Position numbers and translations under genes: made by a program. This document shows, in pieces, positions 2,454 through 64,000 of a stretch of 64,000 bases of DNA. The stretch spans positions 62,001-126,000 of the forward strand of contig JAJDDD010000013.1 in the NCBI GenBank assembly GCA_029260495.1. Direction: 5' to 3'. Each line of letters opens with the position of its first letter. The first letter of the stretch is position 1. The notes below the pieces were generated by a model, which searched no databases, was not told the origin of the DNA, and worked only from the letters and a program-made list of their open reading frames with translations. The stretch comes from Phycisphaerales bacterium. Its GTDB lineage: Bacteria; Planctomycetota; Phycisphaerae; Phycisphaerales; UBA1924.

Positions 2454-4169
2454 TCAGGTCGTGGCGCCTCCGTCGTCTTCGCCATCGTCACTGTCCCCGT
2501 CATCGGGTTTTTCTTGACCTTCCCCATCGGTTTCAGGCGCAGTGTTGCCCTTCTGTTGATTCGCAACATTGACGAGAGCCCGATACTTCGGCGCCATCGC
2601 TGCCGGCTGATCCATGTATTCCAATGCGCCCCATGAGCCAAACCGCCCGGGCTTGCCCACGAAGCTGAACGCCATGAAGTCACTCCCGCCGGCTGCGCGC
2701 CAGACTTCGAAGTAACGCAAGTACAAATCTTCCATGCGCGGATGTCGATTGGCCTCGACCAGCCGTTTGGTCGTCCGGTCGTCAACATGCCCGGGCCCGT
2801 TGAAAACGACCAAATGTTGTCCGCCTTCATACGCCATCAAATCCAACCCTCGTATATCCGCGACTCCCTTGTGCTCGCGAATCGCTCGCTGGGTTGGCCC
2901 GTCAATGTGCTCTTCCATGAGATCAAGAAAATCATCAATGGGAATATCTCGCAGCATCTTCCAATTGCTCCCCAGCCCGTCGAGGGAAAAGTAAGGCGCA
3001 ATCGCGATCGCATCCGCCTCGCCCGGCCCAACCTCTGACAGAATCTGACGCGTCAGCCCCGGATTCACTGCCTGCGTCCCCACAACCCGCACCAGCCTGT
3101 CTGTGCCGCCAAAGACCTCTTCCCAGATCTTGAATATCTCCACGGACCGTCGGCCGATCCACTGCGGATGGCTGAGACCCGCCGCCTGCGCCTGACCATT
3201 CGCGTAGGCCGCCTGCTTGAAGATGAAGTTCCACACCTCGTTGGAATACTCAATGTAGATCTTTCGAGCTGGATCAAGCGTATCGCGCACCAGTATCGCA
3301 AACTGCCGAATATAGTCGTCCGTCGCAGCGTGGGGCATACAGAACCACGGATCTTTGTCCAGCGTGTTGGAAAGTTCGATCGCGTACTCAATCGCTACGC
3401 CCCGATTCGTCCCCTGTGACCGGAACTCTGGCGTAATCCGATCTTCCCAGTGGATGTTGATCGAGTCATTCGTTCGCTGCCAATCCATGAAGCGGAGCGA
3501 TGCAAACGGGCGCAGTCTGGCAAGGAAAACAGGGTGAAACGTTGTTTTCCCTAACAAATCTTCATACTTCGCGGGCACAATCCGAATATTGCGAACATAA
3601 TTATTCGCTTCAGATCGAAGAATACGAATCACAAGCCCAGCATCAGAAGGCACAACATTGAACTCAAACCTCGCTGTCCCGGCGCCGTCAGAGGAATGAG
3701 TTGTTCGGATCGCGTCGAAGTCCATCAGCACGTCGCCGTCGCCCTCATACAGGCAGACATACCGCCCCGGCTCATAATGCCATCCAAAATCGCGACACAT
3801 CAGCGCAGACACGACCTGCCCCCGTTTGAGCCCAATCGGATACCCCGCAGCGTCGAGCAGCGGCGGGCCCAGCTCCTGAGGATCTGACAAATCCCAGTCG
3901 CGGTCGCCTCCAATCTGAGACATCTTGAAGACATCAAGAAACGTCCACGATTCGCTGAAGTAGCTCACCGCGCCGAGGTTCATCCCCAGCGTAAAACCTT
4001 CAGCTTGTTCCGTGTCTTGCTCAGCATTCCCCACCACCGCAGCGGCAGGCCCGCTGAATGGCTCCAACGCAAATAGTGCGAATCCCGCTACAACGACGCT
4101 GAGCACAACTGGGGCAAGCAGACGAAGATAGGGCGCGGCTGTGCCGCAGGACGAACTCTTGGCCAGCAT
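2454..4169 (-). CDS. Secreted glycoside-hydrolase-like TIM-barrel protein with acidic tail
   Basis: 571-aa protein. The ATG at 4169 is preceded by GAGAGG with suitable spacing. Residues ~14-38 form an N-terminal membrane/signal segment. The central part has the phrase IYIEYSNEVWN (around residue 300), where the Glu in SNEVWN sits where clan GH-A enzymes carry the acid/base, and MAYEGGQH further on, whose Glu is a good nucleophile candidate; WEDRITPE lies before them. This pattern matches poorly characterised families annotated as cellulose-binding or GH-like proteins. The last ~35 residues are low-complexity and very acidic (DDGDSDDGEDDGG), unusual for an enzyme terminus and possibly a surface or ion-binding tail. 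Substrate cannot be predicted. It is divergent from hrpA. Confidence 0.7.
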   Translation of the reverse strand: MLAKSSSCGTAAPYLRLLAPVVLSVVVAGFALFALEPFSGPAAAVVGNAEQDTEQAEGFTLGMNLGAVSYFSESWTFLDVFKMSQIGGDRDWDLSDPQELGPPLLDAAGYPIGLKRGQVVSALMCRDFGWHYEPGRYVCLYEGDGDVLMDFDAIRTTHSSDGAGTARFEFNVVPSDAGLVIRILRSEANNYVRNIRIVPAKYEDLLGKTTFHPVFLARLRPFASLRFMDWQRTNDSINIHWEDRITPEFRSQGTNRGVAIEYAIELSNTLDKDPWFCMPHAATDDYIRQFAILVRDTLDPARKIYIEYSNEVWNFIFKQAAYANGQAQAAGLSHPQWIGRRSVEIFKIWEEVFGGTDRLVRVVGTQAVNPGLTRQILSEVGPGEADAIAIAPYFSLDGLGSNWKMLRDIPIDDFLDLMEEHIDGPTQRAIREHKGVADIRGLDLMAYEGGQHLVVFNGPGHVDDRTTKRLVEANRHPRMEDLYLRYFEVWRAAGGSDFMAFSFVGKPGRFGSWGALEYMDQPAAMAPKYRALVNVANQQKGNTAPETDGEGQEKPDDGDSDDGEDDGGATT

Positions 4170-50722: not shown

Positions 50723-51478
50723 ATGATGTTTGAGATCATCGGACCGTGCCGAAGCAGGGCGAACGATCCGCGTCGCCATCTTGTGTTTTCGCGGGCTGCG
50801 ATGCGCGAAGTTGATCGGGCTGCGATTGAGGAGCACGGAATTCCGGGGATTGTGCTTATGGAGAATGCTGCGACGGCGCTGCTGGCGGGGGCGCTGGAGT
50901 TGCTGGAAGGGGTTGAGCATCCGAGCGCATTGATTTGCTGCGGGCCGGGAAACAATGGGGGCGATGGATTGGCGCTGGCGCGGCGGCTTCAGAACGAGGG
51001 CGTGCGCACAGCATGCCTGCTTTCGCGCACCGCCGAGGCATATACAGGCGACGCTCGGGTGAATCTGCAAATCGCGGAGTCGATGTGTTTGCGCATTTCA
51101 GTGGCGGACGGCGCGGCGCCTGAAGAGACGGCGGCTCAACTGGCGCACGAACTTGGCGGACCGGCGTTGATTGTGGATGCGCTGTTCGGGACGGGGCTCA
51201 CGCGGGCGATCGAGGCGCCGACGGATCGGTTGATTGAGTGGATCAATCGTGCGCGGTCCGGGGGGGCGAAGACGCTGGCGGTGGATATCCCCTCCGGGCT
51301 GGACACAGATTCGGGGGAGCCTTTGGGGCCAGCAGTGCGGGCGGATCTGACGGTGACGCTGGGCGGGATGAAGCAGGGGCTGGCGCGCGAGGGGGCGAGG
51401 GCCTGGACGGGGCGAATCGAGGTGGGAGACATCGGGGCGCCGATCGAACTGCTGGAGGCCCACGGGCGGACGCCGTAG
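50723..51478 (+). CDS. nnrE: NAD(P)H-hydrate epimerase (YjeF N-terminal domain only)
   Basis: 251 aa. FSRAAMREVDRAAIEEHGIP, ENAATALLAGALELL, LICCGPGNNGGDGLALARRL (dinucleotide-binding loop), IVDALFGTGLTRAIEAPTDR and VDIPSGLDTDSGEPLGPAV are all YjeF_N hallmarks. It epimerises damaged S- and R-NADHX so that a dehydratase can repair it. The ADP/ATP-dependent dehydratase domain (NnrD) fused in many bacteria is absent here and not seen nearby. Two ATG codons at 50723 and 50726 are both possible. Confidence 0.92.
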   Translation: MMFEIIGPCRSRANDPRRHLVFSRAAMREVDRAAIEEHGIPGIVLMENAATALLAGALELLEGVEHPSALICCGPGNNGGDGLALARRLQNEGVRTACLLSRTAEAYTGDARVNLQIAESMCLRISVADGAAPEETAAQLAHELGGPALIVDALFGTGLTRAIEAPTDRLIEWINRARSGGAKTLAVDIPSGLDTDSGEPLGPAVRADLTVTLGGMKQGLAREGARAWTGRIEVGDIGAPIELLEAHGRTP

Positions 51479-51596
51479 CGACGGTTCTTCAACACATCGC
51501 CCACGGCGGCTGTCGGTTGCGCACGGGGGGAGGACTGAATGCGTAGGATGGAGTTGAACGCTGTGGAAGCGTTCGCATGGAGGCGCGTTTGCGATC

Positions 51597-53204
51597 GTGA
51601 GCATGGAGGCTGCGACAACCAGCAAGGGTTCGGAGAGCTCACGTTCTCGCAGCCCTGTCGGGCGGCGGGCGCCCATAGAGAGGCTGCTGGAGAAGCGACC
51701 GCCGAATGCGCCTGAGGCTGAGATGTCGCTGCTGGGATCGATATTGATCGATCCGGGTGTGCTGCCTGATGTCATCTCGCTGATCAGCGCGGGCGAAGAC
51801 TTCTACGCCTCAGCTCATGCGCTCATCTACGATGCGCTGGTCGATCTCTATGACCAGCGGCAGTCGGGCGACCTGGTGCAGCTGCTCGACGCGCTGCAAA
51901 CGAAGAATGCACTGGAGAATGTCGGCGGGGCGGATTATCTGGTGCAGCTCGCGGAGAGTGTTCCCTCCGCAGCGAACGCGGTTCACTACGCGCGAATCGT
52001 CGCGGAGAAGGCGCGGCTGCGGCGTCTGATTGAAGCAGCCAGCGAGATTATCCATGAAGCGCACAACACAGGGGATCTTGGCGCCGAGGGTGCGCGGGAG
52101 GTGCTCGACCGCGCCGAGCAACGGATTTTTGATATCGCAGAGCGATCGCAGACCGCGGATGCGCAGAAGCTTCAGGAGCTTCTCCATGAAGCAATGGTTC
52201 TGCTTGAGGCAAATGAAGGCCGGCCCATTACAGGGCTGGCGACGGGGTACATGCGGCTTGATGAGCTGACGACGGGTTTGCAGCCGGGCGAACTCCTTAT
52301 TCTCGCTGCCCGGCCTTCGATGGGAAAGACGGCGCTGGCGCTGAATCTGGCGGAGCATGTCGCGCTGCACGGGGCGCATCATGCGGCGGCGCCGGTGGCA
52401 TTCTTTAGTTTGGAAATGAGCCGCCAGGCGCTGACGCAGCGGATGATGTGCGCGCGAGCGACGGTGGATTCGCATCGGTTCCGCACGAATACGCTCACGG
52501 AAGATGACTATCGGCGGCTTATGAAGGCATGCGGGGATCTCGATCCGGCGCCGCTGTACATTGATGACACGCCGGGGATGACCATCCTTCAGCTTCGGGC
52601 GCGGGCGCGGCGGTTGGTTGCGCAGCACGGCGTGAAGTGCATTTTTATTGATTATCTTCAGCTTCTGACGGCGCCGGGCTCGGCGCGGGAGTCGCGGCAG
52701 GTGGAGGTTTCGGCGATCAGCCGGCAGATTAAGGCGCTGGCGCGGGAGCTCAACATTCCGGTGGTGTGCCTTGCACAGCTGAATCGTGGAGCGGAGCAGC
52801 GCGAGGGGCATCGGCCGCGGATGAGCGATCTGCGTGAGTCGGGGTCGATCGAGCAGGATGCAGATGTCATCATGCTCCTGCACCGCGAGTCCTATTACCA
52901 CCAGGGCGATGAGCAGTGGCTCGAAGAGCACGAGGGCGAGGAGAATCTGGCGGAGGTCATCATTGCGAAGCAGCGAAACGGGCCGACGGGCGTGGCGAAG
53001 CTGACGTGGGACGCGAAGACGACGCGATTTTTGGACTACACAGAGCAGCGGTATCGGGAGCCTGTGTCGTATTCCGCCCCGACGGCGCCCCCGGAAGTGA
53101 CAACCTTCGCGCCGGGGACGAGATCTGGGCCGGCAGAGTCGCACCGGGATGGTGGGGGGCCGGCGAGGCCCTGGGAGGGTGAGGAGTCGGACGCACCGTT
53201 TTGA
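51597..53204 (+). CDS. dnaB: Replicative DNA helicase DnaB
   Basis: 535 aa. GTG at 51597 (ATG at 51603 also possible; GGAGG lies 13 bases before the GTG). N-terminal domain PPNAPEAEMSLLGSILIDPG, linker, and RecA-like ATPase domain: ITGLATGYMRLDELTTGLQP, LAARPSMGKTALALNLAEHV (Walker A), VAFFSLEMSRQALTQRMM, KCIFIDYLQLL (Walker B), AQLNRGAEQREGHRPRMSDL and RESGSIEQDADVIMLLHRE. Full length and continuous. The first 45 residues and the last ~45 residues (Pro/Gly-rich) are variable tails. It unwinds DNA at the replication fork. It directly precedes rplK, an unusual neighbour (usually nusG). Confidence 0.95.
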   Translation: MSMEAATTSKGSESSRSRSPVGRRAPIERLLEKRPPNAPEAEMSLLGSILIDPGVLPDVISLISAGEDFYASAHALIYDALVDLYDQRQSGDLVQLLDALQTKNALENVGGADYLVQLAESVPSAANAVHYARIVAEKARLRRLIEAASEIIHEAHNTGDLGAEGAREVLDRAEQRIFDIAERSQTADAQKLQELLHEAMVLLEANEGRPITGLATGYMRLDELTTGLQPGELLILAARPSMGKTALALNLAEHVALHGAHHAAAPVAFFSLEMSRQALTQRMMCARATVDSHRFRTNTLTEDDYRRLMKACGDLDPAPLYIDDTPGMTILQLRARARRLVAQHGVKCIFIDYLQLLTAPGSARESRQVEVSAISRQIKALARELNIPVVCLAQLNRGAEQREGHRPRMSDLRESGSIEQDADVIMLLHRESYYHQGDEQWLEEHEGEENLAEVIIAKQRNGPTGVAKLTWDAKTTRFLDYTEQRYREPVSYSAPTAPPEVTTFAPGTRSGPAESHRDGGGPARPWEGEESDAPF

Positions 53205-53209
53205 CGGGC

Positions 53210-53237
53210 TTGCGGCGGGCGGGGATCGCGGTACACT
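53210..53237 (+). promoter_or_regulatory. Candidate promoter for the rplK operon
   Basis: TTGCGG (53210-53215), 16-nt spacer and TACACT (53232-53237), about 98 nt before the rplK ATG at 53335 and right after the dnaB stop. Spacing fits but the hexamers are imperfect and the region is GC-rich. Confidence 0.45.
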
Positions 53238-53334
53238 TTCCGGCTCGCTTCGGCGAAGCATTTTTCAACAACTCAACACCGATCGGACCACCATTGCGGC
53301 TTGAAAGCTGCTCGGCGGTGGGAGGTAAGCACTT

Positions 53335-53763
53335 ATGGCGAAGAAAGAAATCGTCACCACATTCAAGGTGACAGCCCCCGGCGGACAGGCGACTCCAGCC
53401 CCGCCGCTCGGCCCGGCCTTGGGCGGCAACGGCGTCAATCCAGGTCAGTTCATCCAGCAGTTCAACGCTGCGACAGGCTCGCTGAATGGCAAGGTTGTCG
53501 GCTGTGTGATCACTGTCTACGGGGATCGCTCGTTCGACTTTGTGATTAAGTCATCGCCAGCGGCGAACTTGATCAGAACGGCGGCGGGGATTGAAAAGGG
53601 CTCGGGCGTGCCTCACACGGAGAAGGTGGGCAAGATCACAAGTGATCAGGTTCGGGCGATCGCGGAGGAGAAACTGGCAGACCTGAACGCAGGCTCGGTT
53701 GATTCAGCGATGCGGATGATCGAAGGCACAGCTCGCTCAATGGGCGTTGTGGTGGAGGGCTGA
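53335..53763 (+). CDS. rplK: 50S ribosomal protein L11
   Basis: 142 aa, standard length. ATG at 53335. TAPGGQATPAPPLGPALGGN, GVNPGQFIQQFNAAT, ASPAANLIRTAAGIEKGSGV reads here SSPAANLIRTAAGIEKGSGV, and DQVRAIAEEKLADLNAGSVD followed by GTARSMGVVV, all L11 landmarks. It binds the GTPase-associated region of 23S rRNA. rplA starts five bases after its stop. No nusG or secE lies upstream; dnaB is the neighbour instead. Confidence 0.97.
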   Translation: MAKKEIVTTFKVTAPGGQATPAPPLGPALGGNGVNPGQFIQQFNAATGSLNGKVVGCVITVYGDRSFDFVIKSSPAANLIRTAAGIEKGSGVPHTEKVGKITSDQVRAIAEEKLADLNAGSVDSAMRMIEGTARSMGVVVEG

Positions 53764-53768
53764 TTCCA

Positions 53769-54482
53769 ATGGCGAAGAAGATAGAAGAAAAGAAGCCTCG
53801 CCGTCTTGGCAAGCGTTCGTGGGACAACATCAAGCTGGCGCCGGCGGAGGCGATCGAGCTTCATGAGGCTGTAAAGGTTCTCAAGAAGTTCAAGGGGCCG
53901 AAGTTTGATCAATCGGTCGAGGTCTGCATGGTGCTGGGGATTGATCCGAAGCAGGCGGATCAGCAGGTGCGCGGGGCCGTCGCGATGCCGAATGGCATTG
54001 GCAAGTCCAAGCGCGTCATAGCGTTCTGCCAGAGCGATGTGGCGAAGGAAGCTTTGGCTGCAGGGGCTGTGAAGGCTGGCGGCGAAGAGCTGGTTGAAGA
54101 AATCGAGAAGGGTTTCGTTGATTTCGATGTCGCCGTCGCGAGCCCGGACATGATGCGCGTGGTGAGCAAGCTTGGGCGTGTGCTTGGTCCCAAGGGGCTG
54201 ATGCCTTCGCCGAAGGCGGGCACGGTGACGCCGAATGTTGCGGAAGCGGTGAAGGAATACTCTGCGGGCAAGGTTGAATACCGCAATGACAAGAGCGGAA
54301 ACATTCATGCGGCGGTGGGAAAGATGAGCTTTTCGGAGAGTGATCTTGCTGAGAATCTGGATTACTTCATCGAGACGATCGCCAAGCTTCGCCCATCGAG
54401 TGTGAAAGGGCGATTCGTTAAGAAGATCAGCATCAGCGGAACAATGACGCCGGGCGTGCAGGTGGCGTACGCAGGCGAGTGA
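53769..54482 (+). CDS. rplA: 50S ribosomal protein L1
   Basis: 237 aa, standard. ATG at 53769. LHEAVKVLKKFKGPKFDQSV, GKSKRVIAFCQSD, SPDMMRVVSKLGRVLGPKGL and MPSPKAGTVTPNV match L1. It binds the L1 stalk and its own mRNA as a translational repressor in E. coli. The operon spacing to rplK is five nt, which supports translational coupling; rplJ follows after 50 nt. Confidence 0.97.
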   Translation: MAKKIEEKKPRRLGKRSWDNIKLAPAEAIELHEAVKVLKKFKGPKFDQSVEVCMVLGIDPKQADQQVRGAVAMPNGIGKSKRVIAFCQSDVAKEALAAGAVKAGGEELVEEIEKGFVDFDVAVASPDMMRVVSKLGRVLGPKGLMPSPKAGTVTPNVAEAVKEYSAGKVEYRNDKSGNIHAAVGKMSFSESDLAENLDYFIETIAKLRPSSVKGRFVKKISISGTMTPGVQVAYAGE

Positions 54483-54532
54483 TAGGGTCGGGCGAGTCCG
54501 ATTCGCCGGAAGATTAAGAAAGAGAAGAACCG

Positions 54533-55078
54533 ATGAGCAAGACCGTCAAAGAGTTCATGATGCGCGACTACAAGTCGCTTTTCGAAGGCGTTGAAGATGC
54601 GCTGCTCGTGAGCGTGCGCGGCGTCGAGGCGAACGACAACAACCGCATGCGTCTGGGTCTTCAGGAGAAGGGCATACGGATTACGGTTGTGCGAAACAAT
54701 CTGGCGAAGCGCGCTTTTGCTGACTCCAGCCTTGAAGGATTGAATGACTTGCTGGATGGGCCGACAGCGCTTGCCTATGGCGGGGAGACAGTTGTTGACG
54801 CTGCCCGCGAGTTGGTGAAGTGGGCCAAAGAGGTTCAGCAGCTCGAACTCAAGGGCGCCATCCTTGATGGCGAGCTCTTCGAAGGTGCAGCGGGTGTTCA
54901 AAGGCTGTCGGACTTCCCGACGCGCGATGAAGCTCAGGCGCAGGTGGTTACGCTCGTTCTGAGCCCGGCGCGCAATCTGGTTGGCGGGATCCTCGGGCCA
55001 GGCTCGTCGCTGGCTTCCATTGTGAAGTCGATCGAAGAGAAGCTGGAAAAGGGAGAGACGATCAGCAAGGCGGGCTGA
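54533..55078 (+). CDS. rplJ: 50S ribosomal protein L10
   Basis: 181 aa. ATG at 54533 preceded by AAAGAGAAG. The N-terminal KEFMMRDYKSLFEGVEDALL, EANDNNRMRLGLQEKGIRIT then VVRNNLAKRAF, and LVGGILGPGSSLASIVKSIE identify L10, which anchors the L12 dimers. No L10 leader hairpin could be resolved in the short (50-nt) gap before it. Confidence 0.95.
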   Translation: MSKTVKEFMMRDYKSLFEGVEDALLVSVRGVEANDNNRMRLGLQEKGIRITVVRNNLAKRAFADSSLEGLNDLLDGPTALAYGGETVVDAARELVKWAKEVQQLELKGAILDGELFEGAAGVQRLSDFPTRDEAQAQVVTLVLSPARNLVGGILGPGSSLASIVKSIEEKLEKGETISKAG

Positions 55079-55255
55079 GGCGTGTGAGCGTCGGAACTGC
55101 CTTGTTGCGATTGATAGATGAGAAAAAACTGACAACATCCGATCCGGACTGGCCCTTGGGTTAAAGGTTGAGCGTTCAGCCCCTCTCTGGATGGTGTTCA
55201 CCGTCAGGCGTGACCAAACGTCGAACGGCGAGATAGAGAAAGTAGAGACGAAATT

Positions 55256-55657
55256 ATGTCCGAAGAAACCAAAACATTTGACGCCAAAATCACCAAGATC
55301 GGTGATGAGCTCGCCGGCCTTACGCTTAAGGAAGCAGTTGATCTCGGTGATTACATGAAAGAGACGTATGGCATTGAGCCGGCTGCTGGCGGCGGCGTGA
55401 TCATGGCGGCTGCTGGCGGCGACGCGGGCGGCGGCGAGGAAGAGAAGACCTCGTTCGACGTGATCCTTACCTCTGCTGGCGATAAGAAGATTCAGGTCAT
55501 TAAGGTCGTGCGGGAGATCACCGGCCTCGGTCTGAAGGAAGCCAAGGATCTTGTCGACGGCGCTCCCAAGGCGGTCAAGGAAGGCCTGAGCAAGGAAGAC
55601 GCCGAGGCTCTCAAGACCAAGCTCGAAGAGGTCGGCGGCGGCGTCGAGATCAAGTAA
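55256..55657 (+). CDS. rplL: 50S ribosomal protein L7/L12
   Basis: 133 aa, ATG at 55256. [20 protein letters not shown] in the N-terminal domain, a Gly/Ala/acidic hinge ([20 protein letters not shown]), and the C-terminal [20 protein letters not shown] and [20 protein letters not shown]. It recruits translation factors to the ribosome. Separated from rplJ by 177 nt, longer than usual, which may hold a regulatory site; none was resolved. Followed by a large stem-loop at 55703-55742. Confidence 0.97.
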
Positions 55658-55702
55658 GAGAACACGAATCGAGCAGACGACCTGCTCGCGGATGAGCAAT
55701 TT

Positions 55703-55742
55703 GGACAAGAGGCGTCCCTCTCAAGAGAGGGGCGCCTTGTCC
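55703..55742 (+). terminator. Strong stem-loop after rplL (attenuator or processing site)
   Basis: GGACAAG (55703-55709) pairs with CTTGTCC (55736-55742), and GGCG-like and CCCTCT (to 55721) pair with AGAGGGGCGC inside, giving about 18 base pairs with a few bulges and a 4-nt loop. There is no U-run directly behind it, so RNase III processing or attenuation fits as well as simple termination. Confidence 0.55.
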
Positions 55743-55852
55743 AGTCGGTGGCCGAGCGGCTGGCAGAAATGGAAAAATTGGGTTGTTTGCCGGGTTTTTT
55801 CGCTTATGGCCATAATTTTGTCTTTTTTTGAAAATCGGTTCCGGTCCGCTTC

Positions 55853-55881
55853 TTGCAGGCGGATGATCGGCGGGCTATGAT
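55853..55881 (+). promoter_or_regulatory. Sigma70-type promoter of rpoB
   Basis: TTGCAG (55853-55858), exactly 17-nt spacer and TATGAT (55876-55881). The rpoB ATG at 55990 is about 100 nt downstream. Five of six bases match at -10; four of six at -35. Confidence 0.65.
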
Positions 55882-55989
55882 GCATGGCTCGGCGTTTTCA
55901 AACGGGTGTGACCACGACTCAACTCTTACTTCATTGGATGGCCTCAAAGTGGGGCCAATCCCTGTAGTTCAACCATCGTGAGGATTTCG

Positions 55990-59802
<3,813 letters not shown>

Positions 59803-59863
59803 TTTTCATACTTCTGGCCAAATAAAGGCGCCAGAGCCAAGGCTGCGTTTGGGAGTGATTTCG

Positions 59864-60463
59864 ATGAAACATCACCAAATCGGTGGAATCAGTTTGGTTG
59901 TCGCGTTGAGTGTTGTTGTGCTTGGTTGCGAGCAAGGCGCCAAGAGCGACTCGACGCCTGATGGTGGAGCGACCAACAACGACGCTGTGGCGACTGGCGC
60001 CGAGCGCAATGGCAAGCCCGCTCCACCTGCTGCAAACTCAACTTCCGATCATTCGACAGACACAGAGAGTCCGGTGAGCCTCGTTCCGCTGAAGGACAGA
60101 ACGCCTGATGAAGCGTTTGAAACCTATATTGAGCGGCTTCGGGTCGGTGATTTCTGGGGCGCTTTGGAGGTGTGCGATCCTGACGCAGAGGGGACACTCG
60201 CGCTTACCGGGTTCGCAGACAACCTCGACAACGTGCGCCGCGACCTTGAGTCTGACCCAAACTCACCAATCTCTTATGAGACCATGATCCATCTTACAAC
60301 GGGCGACTTTAAAGCGTTGACGTGGGCGGTCGTCTCTGAAGGCGCGGACTCAGCGGTCGTTGAGATTACGAAGCCTGATCCTGGGGACACAACGGACGTG
60401 CGCCTTACCTTCCTTGATGGCGCCTGGCGCGTCATCCCGCCTCCCAAGACCGGCATTCCGTAA
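59864..60463 (+). CDS. Lipoprotein of unknown function inserted between rpoB and rpoC
   Basis: 199 aa from the Met at 59864, with GGGAG upstream; the longer frame from 59756 overlaps rpoB in another frame and is a shadow. Lipoprotein signal SLVVALSVVVLGCEQGAKSD puts Cys at ~22, followed by a Thr/Asp/Asn-rich linker and a compact domain: DEAFETYIERLRVGDFWGAL, EVCDPDAEGTLALTGFADNL, HLTTGDFKALTWAVVSEGAD, VRLTFLDGAWRVIPPP. The shape (small alpha-beta domain after a linker, with a final W-R-V-I-P strand) is like NTF2/DUF4878-type lipoprotein folds, but this is not certain. It is co-oriented with rpoB (61-nt gap) and rpoC (102-nt gap). Its leader resembles that of rpoB (both GATTTCGATG at the start). 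Confidence 0.75.
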   Translation: MKHHQIGGISLVVALSVVVLGCEQGAKSDSTPDGGATNNDAVATGAERNGKPAPPAANSTSDHSTDTESPVSLVPLKDRTPDEAFETYIERLRVGDFWGALEVCDPDAEGTLALTGFADNLDNVRRDLESDPNSPISYETMIHLTTGDFKALTWAVVSEGADSAVVEITKPDPGDTTDVRLTFLDGAWRVIPPPKTGIP

Positions 60464-60565
60464 AACGAACAAAACCCTCCAAGCAGCAGTGGCTCGACAG
60501 GAGCCATCACCGACCGAGCCGAATCACACGCGATCGACGCACAAGACTGGAGAGCACAGCTAATC

Positions 60566-64000
<3,435 letters not shown>

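Follow-up and report, generated by a model that had tools for sequence, protein, structure and literature searches.

The rpoB and rpoC genes, coding for the β and β′ subunits of RNA polymerase, form one of the most conserved adjacencies in bacterial genomes. In the stretch of DNA analyzed here (hereinafter the window: 64,000 nucleotides from a member of the Phycisphaerales), the two are separated by an interval of 763 bp (59803–60565) that holds a gene of 199 codons, the forward strand reading rplK–rplA–rplJ–rplL–rpoB–(lipoprotein)–rpoC (Table 1). A preliminary description of the window had reported a lipoprotein gene at this place, on the same strand as its neighbors and with a start signal of its own. 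Both points are confirmed: Pfam domains identify the flanking genes, the encoded protein displays by eye the hydrophobic signal peptide and lipobox cysteine (VVLGC) that characterize bacterial lipoproteins, with Cys22 as the predicted site of lipidation, and a likely Shine–Dalgarno sequence precedes the ATG. The rpoB frame is readable from a GTG at 55978, the ATG at 55990 being its likely start, and the rpoC product has a full length of 1471 aa in the genome.

Table 1. Features in and around the rpoB–rpoC interval (positions in the window)
Feature	Positions	Strand	Remarks
rplK	53335–53763	+	Named by eye; used as control query
rplA	53769–54482	+	Named by eye; used as control query
rplJ	54533–55078	+	Named by eye; used as control query
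rplL	55256–55657	+	Confirmed by Pfam
GATTTCGATG decamer at rpoB start	55983–55992	+	Same decamer as at lipoprotein start
rpoB (β subunit)	55990–59802	+	Pfam RNA_pol_Rpb2 domains
rpoB–lipoprotein spacer	59803–59863	+	61 bp
GGGAG, likely Shine–Dalgarno	59851–59855	+	8 nt before lipoprotein ATG; by eye
GATTTCGATG decamer at lipoprotein start	59857–59866	+	Same decamer as at rpoB start
Lipoprotein gene, family A1	59864–60463	+	199 aa, ATG start
Signal peptide, residues 1–21	59864–59926	+	Lipobox VLG, then Cys22; by eye
Lipobox Cys22 (VVLGC, residues 18–22)	59927–59929	+	By eye
Predicted tether, residues 23–77	59930–60094	+	Mostly disordered, Ser/Thr/Asp-rich; AlphaFold pLDDT
Predicted NTF2-like α+β domain, residues 78–194	60095–60445	+	AlphaFold model and structure matches
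Lipoprotein–rpoC spacer	60464–60565	+	102 bp; GGAG at 60549–60552
rpoC (β′ subunit)	60566–64000	+	RNA_pol_Rpb1 domains; runs past window end

Pattern scans of positions 59700–60700 found no promoter-like site of the sigma-70 type, a pattern that planctomycete promoters may not fit, and no plus-strand terminator-like site in either spacer flanking the lipoprotein gene. Taking both strands together, four terminator-like sites are present, in excess of the mean of 0.8 in shuffled sequences. Two are on the minus strand, one of these in the lipoprotein–rpoC spacer (60497–60479), and two are on the plus strand: one within the lipoprotein gene (60134–60146) and a weak one with 7 pairs at the extreme 3′ end of rpoB (59774–59790), which could result in weaker read-through. 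As both plus-strand candidates lie inside coding sequence, we rejected a terminator isolating the lipoprotein gene; hence, bar the weak site at the rpoB end, the scans revealed neither a promoter nor a terminator that would set the gene apart from rpoBC. With no promoter-like site around the gene and no plus-strand terminator-like site in its spacers, the simplest assumption is that it is transcribed together with rpoBC, which we regard as likely. No Rfam family matched at its gathering score across positions 51000–64000.

The preliminary description had further drawn attention to the decamer common to the leaders of rpoB and the lipoprotein gene. Its positions are as described, with a third window copy at 54120, inside rplA, and three matches are more than shuffling typically yields (mean 0.42; 1 of 100 shuffles with at least three). 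Its conservation did not hold up: GATTTCGATG recurs often in this genome, with 37 copies as against none for the reversed control, and is found in 0 of 13 start regions of other homologues in the family. On these two grounds we discarded it as a regulatory leader signal. Likewise, codon usage gave no sign of very high expression, with the lipoprotein gene showing a middling codon adaptation of 0.61 versus 0.70 for rpoB and ranking below 26 of the 46 long window ORFs, a set including some shadow frames.

Fold, distribution and inheritance of the lipoprotein

Sixteen homologues sharing 19–30% identity with the window protein were aligned (family A1), and an AlphaFold2 model was obtained from this alignment. 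The mean pLDDT of residue blocks is 48–64 up to residue 70 and 91–98 from residue 71 onward. Residues 90–199, for which the preliminary description had proposed a fold prediction, fall mostly in a confidently modeled NTF2-like domain (residues 78–194), with helices (81–93, 97–101, 109–130 and 138–151) packed on a curved β-sheet (strands 153–159, 163–169, 176–184 and 187–191). Foldseek gave a list rich in NTF2-like and cystatin-like proteins, with no match at E below 0.001. In a second structural alignment (VIA), the rows are mostly of the same two kinds; the best match is 3gwr (Z 8.6, 101 residues, 3.2 Å), alongside PBP5 (Z 8.4, 99 residues, 3.6 Å) and AtzH (Z 7.9, 95 residues, 2.7 Å). None of the 16 A1 members matches a Pfam family, the sub-threshold matches being scattered (CaMKII_AD, E 0.049, and TcaA_5th, E 0.1, in one member each), and the best PDB profile match is to ribosomal protein S8 (E 0.006). 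A known family for the lipoprotein was sought in Pfam and PADLOC and found in neither, so that the C-terminal domain is assigned as NTF2-like from a model built on 16 sequences.

A first search with the window protein in 61 relatives matched six genomes, its own included, and in the other five the homologue lies directly upstream of rpoC. A profile search of 163 genomes of the window's family, a planctomycete family whose nearest named records are Phycisphaerales, yielded 20 strong places (E below 1e-10), spread over 19 genomes from 17 genera, together with weak, mostly N-terminal matches; 124 of the 163 genomes have no match at E up to 0.001. Nineteen of the 20 strong places are at rpoB–rpoC, the homologues occupying the same junction in 18 genomes besides that of the window. 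In two of these (G026 and G152), rpoB lies directly upstream of the lipoprotein gene, and in G026 the junction is seen from the rpoB side only, as the contig ends before rpoC. The single strong place away from the junction is a second A1-family lipoprotein in G140 (L373:2190–2876). Across 201 genomes of the order, a set comprising 126 genomes of other families if the draw is the same as in our gap survey of the order, ten matched, all from the window's family, and no homologue was found in the other families. Hence, the lineage-wide arrangement that the preliminary description had considered holds for a part of the family, with no homologue found in the order's other families. The lipobox cysteine is present in 17 of 19 members (14 of the 16 A1 rows plus L183, L202 and L203) and absent from L018 and L019, and a tryptophan, W188, is invariant in the alignment. 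An unsystematic look at relatives noticed no degraded frame.

Two close pairs of lipoprotein genes have dN/dS of about 0.2 (L018–L019, dN 0.239 and dS 1.19; L077–L086, dN 0.412 and dS 2.01) and are under purifying selection, whereas two distant pairs, with values near 0.8–0.9, are uninformative because their sites are saturated. Accordingly, it is hardly credible that the ORF is a long chance frame: only its lack of a database family speaks for this, and it would leave unexplained a related protein at one place in 19 genomes, the low dN/dS of the close pairs and the confident fold. Inheritance is tree-like. Distances between the lipoproteins track those between the corresponding rpoB sequences (Mantel r 0.60, p 0.0001, 16 rows). 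An rpoB tree was built from 149 junctions, parts of it with weak support (open at 55 of 146 inner branches); on it, the 17 rows carrying the gene are explained by 5 changes, a number also obtained in a separate run, as compared to a mean of 16.4 in shuffles, 0 of 500 of which were as low. Insert labels were assigned manually for this tree, 7 of 150 rows being unclear, and the window row falls nearest to L034 and to f4 genomes, a group coded as a different family. We infer that the gene entered the junction early, gain and loss not being separable on such trees.

The rpoB–rpoC junction as a gene slot

An rpoC gene was found in 147 of the 163 family genomes, with 16 lacking a match. After leaving out junctions in which rpoC is cut by a contig end, there were 137 family junctions with both ends read, namely 128 plus L002, L181–L186, L202 and L372; L372 replaces L021, and the stretch L046, from G026, is without rpoB, the same genome being read on the rpoB side as L203. 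Fifty-six of the 137 junctions are at least 200 bp, the longest being 1480 bp. One of these (L072, 378 bp) consists of runs of N and does not enter the tree, and three (L067, L088 and L103) are without a clear gene; most of the long junctions hold a co-directional gene from one of several unrelated families. Automatic clustering of the ORFs from family and order junctions (phmmer) placed the lipoprotein at 17 loci, HEPN together with its small partner gene downstream at 13, a sulfotransferase-type protein at 6 (all in f4), a charged-tail small membrane protein at 5, a methyltransferase at 3 and an FkbM-type methyltransferase at 2, besides pairs of others. This clustering bears out the main families as labeled by hand, but only in part the manual groupings of small proteins, membrane and soluble, and Pfam supports Methyltransf_11, FkbM and Sulfotransfer_1 among the cargo. 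The clustered families are on the rpoBC strand, and minus-strand ORF clusters are read as their antisense shadows. The sulfotransferase-type gene, of about 300 aa, was observed in all six f4 genomes read (L167–L171 and L180), with Pfam applied to L167. Empty junctions are clustered on the rpoB tree (30 changes for 82 rows versus 49.3 in shuffles), so that insertion is unevenly spread, and in one genus, coded g3, seven tree junctions are either empty or carry differing cargo.

Beyond the family, gaps of at least 200 bp were found in 13 of 68 junctions from genomes of the order's other families, among loci with both coordinates in the matches listed. Among named loci, found by a scan with the rpoC N-terminus and overlapping the unnamed set (the methyltransferase of L246 is the same as that of L105), 12 of the 79 with a measured gap reach this length. 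These comprise 11 of 50 Planctomycetota records, four of which (203–236 bp) lack a clear gene, and L267, a bin labeled Alphaproteobacteria that carries a planctomycete GNAT-like insert; the other 28 named records have gaps of 133 bp or less. By eye, a conserved GNAT-like protein of about 150–190 aa is encoded at rpoB–rpoC in L253, L263, L264, L266, L267 and L270.

The junctions immediately upstream were measured in 40 control genomes picked for their long contigs. Gaps at least 200 bp above the median are seen in 0 of 33 rplK–rplA, 0 of 33 rplA–rplJ, 1 of 33 rplJ–rplL and 2 of 37 rplL–rpoB junctions, dnaB–rplK being measured in one genome. In the same genomes, 16 of 40 rpoB–rpoC junctions exceed this mark (median 376), and 29 of 40 are at least 200 bp. 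Since these genomes are richer in rpoB–rpoC inserts than the family, only their neighboring junctions serve as a control. The sole long rplJ–rplL gap (811 bp, L219 in G080) has, by eye, a 175-aa lipoprotein-like ORF. One rplL–rpoB gap of 2752 bp (L227 in G099) holds a 513-aa ORF and, on the opposite strand, a possible antitoxin and PIN-type pair recognized by eye.

Thus, several unrelated gene families turn over between rpoB and rpoC, whereas the neighboring junctions are seldom enlarged, behavior that shows the junction to be a gene slot. A special link between the lipoprotein and RNA polymerase is not supported: in other genera the slot is empty or occupied by unrelated genes, the codon usage is middling and the decamer is unconserved. 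As a resident of a permissive slot, the lipoprotein cannot be taken from its position to act on RNA polymerase, which cautions that operon neighborhood is a poor guide to function even inside rpoBC. The tree-like residence at one place and the lack of a promoter-like site would both fit a gene kept in the rpoBC operon so that its dose tracks growth rate or RNA polymerase, for instance as an envelope-growth factor whose amount is scaled to transcription capacity. We consider this unlikely, though, with the gene undetected in most of the family, unrelated genes in its place elsewhere and codon usage unlike that of a highly expressed gene. The variety of unrelated inserts might alternatively mean that any insert acts in cis as RNA, separating the translation of rpoB and rpoC or adding a point of mRNA processing, such that the protein itself matters little. 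This is very improbable for the lipoprotein in view of the purifying selection in close pairs, the confident fold with its invariant W188 and the spacers, neither of which folds clearly better than shuffled versions (z 0.22 upstream and −1.37 downstream).

HEPN cassettes at rpoB–rpoC and iscS–iscU

The HEPN cargo shows no agreement with the host tree: its distances are uncorrelated with those of rpoB (r −0.02, p 0.55, 12 rows), to which saturation may contribute, and its 13 rows require 12 changes on the rpoB tree, as compared to a mean of 12.7 in shuffles, 145 of 500 of which were as low. The Pfam HEPN model matches L174 with 35.7 bits (cut-off 22) and L057 with 18.6, below the cut-off, and three of four proteins weakly match HEPN_IX in PADLOC (best E 5e-5). 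An RX4–6H motif, looked for as a possible sign of RNase activity, is present in 10 of 12 rows, mostly at alignment position H59, but not at any single conserved position toward the C-terminus. The small partner (L182:239–511 on the minus strand, and others in A3/A4) models as a KH-like α-β-α-β domain; Era, NusA and RbfA are among the nearest folds listed, where no match reaches an E below 0.001.

A profile built from the rpoB–rpoC copies detected, at E up to 1e-8, 16 places in the 163 family genomes: 11 at rpoB–rpoC and five between iscS and iscU (L366 in G118, L367 in G128, L368 in G094, L370 in G010 and L371 in G147). At the latter, the HEPN genes are on the same strand as their flanks and by eye have a small partner-like gene downstream. 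NCBIfam names IscS above the cut-off in all four proteins scanned (NF010611). Of the three IscU scanned, two are named likewise, and L367 scores 190.0 against a cut-off of 192.4; the remaining IscS and IscU, including those of G118, were named by eye. An order-wide search gave 13 places, ten at rpoB–rpoC (one a remnant in G038), two at iscS–iscU and one elsewhere. The G038 remnant (L155, junction of 278 bp) fuses the start of the HEPN gene to the end of the partner, and is a product of cassette decay.

In G147 (L372), two HEPN–partner cassettes lie in tandem between rpoB and rpoC, the second being preceded by 66 nt that repeat the rpoB 3′ end (L372:2358–2423 and 3084–3149, 89% identical), as expected if a stretch carrying its rpoB flank had been recombined in. 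As a general scar of insertion such a duplication was rejected, being found in 1 of 82 junctions tested. This cassette and the exchange of HEPN at the slot invite the view that the lipoprotein is likewise mobile cargo, acquired many times over through recombination within rpoB and rpoC on either side. We hold this to be quite improbable, as the lipoprotein distances track rpoB and only five state changes are needed. Tentatively, and with the odds clearly against it, we also entertain a wider scheme. Here, rpoB–rpoC and, for one cassette, iscS–iscU would in Phycisphaerales be gene slots in essential operons, with recombination between the conserved genes on either side exchanging their cargo; the HEPN and KH-like pair, found almost only there, would be an addiction or guard module whose supply depends on transcription of the essential operon and which is set off by shut-off of rpoBC or iscSU, and the NTF2-like lipoprotein a domesticated vertical resident.

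Synthesis and comparison with known systems

We consider it probable that the window gene encodes an old envelope lipoprotein, a vertically kept operon passenger in a site that accommodates genes. It would be read most likely from the rpoBC transcript using its own ribosome-binding site, its location perhaps giving steady, growth-linked expression. The product would be exported, lipidated on Cys22 and tethered to the membrane by a disordered stretch of about 55 residues, displaying in the periplasm an NTF2-like domain that may bind a ligand or partner protein. The gene would have been inherited vertically in the rpoB–rpoC spacer over a deep part of the family, the junction being a permissive slot that in other lineages is either empty or filled by different genes. 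An old vertical lipoprotein and a HEPN pair indifferent to the tree at the same address allow residents to be separated from visitors, and a clade in which about two-fifths of the junctions hold extra co-directional sequence offers a natural experiment on what an essential operon tolerates and how cargo enters it.

NTF2-like domains of the MecA_N type are found in Enterococcus faecium PBP5 and in PBP2a, where, as in the predicted arrangement of the window lipoprotein, the domain is extracytoplasmic and near the membrane anchor. The window protein differs from PBP5 in its 12% identity and in having no transpeptidase domain, and a common fold does not show a common function. A second likeness is to YbjP of E. 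coli (DUF3828), described in PMC13082787 as a periplasmic lipoprotein that binds TolC and shares its DUF with Tai3. YbjP resembles the window lipoprotein in its N-terminal lipid anchor, lead peptide and compact domain; in the complex with the AcrABZ–TolC pump (9tg4_P) it ranked fifth in Foldseek (E 0.018), and Tai3 is in the list too. However, the TM-scores of the two are low (0.33 and 0.41), none of the 16 members matched DUF3828 at E up to 1 (matches beyond about 0.1 being mostly removed by HMMER's filters), and a TolC-like partner of the window lipoprotein would be hypothetical. The YbjP precedent makes binding of an outer-membrane duct one possible job for such a lipoprotein.

For insertion between rpoB and rpoC, a survey of titles and abstract beginnings in the open-access literature found no report. 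Small gene sets inserted in the wider conserved cluster (tusDCB, bfd–bfr and nrdHEF) are described from Gammaproteobacteria and Bacilli in the portion of PMC8046335 considered here; these lie between operons or between rplL and rsmC, and, unlike the inserts reported here, none of those described there is between rpoB and rpoC. A further parallel is the known model of horizontal-transfer hotspots flanked by core genes that themselves undergo homologous recombination (Oliveira et al. 2017, PMC5635113). The rpoB–rpoC slot shares with such hotspots the fixed core-gene flanks and the turnover of unrelated cargo, and no integrase was noticed among the cargo families identified. It differs in that turnover is seen across genera rather than strains (there being one genome per species), and in lying inside the RNA polymerase operon itself, where most inserts consist of a single co-directional gene or a pair, against four genes in G147.
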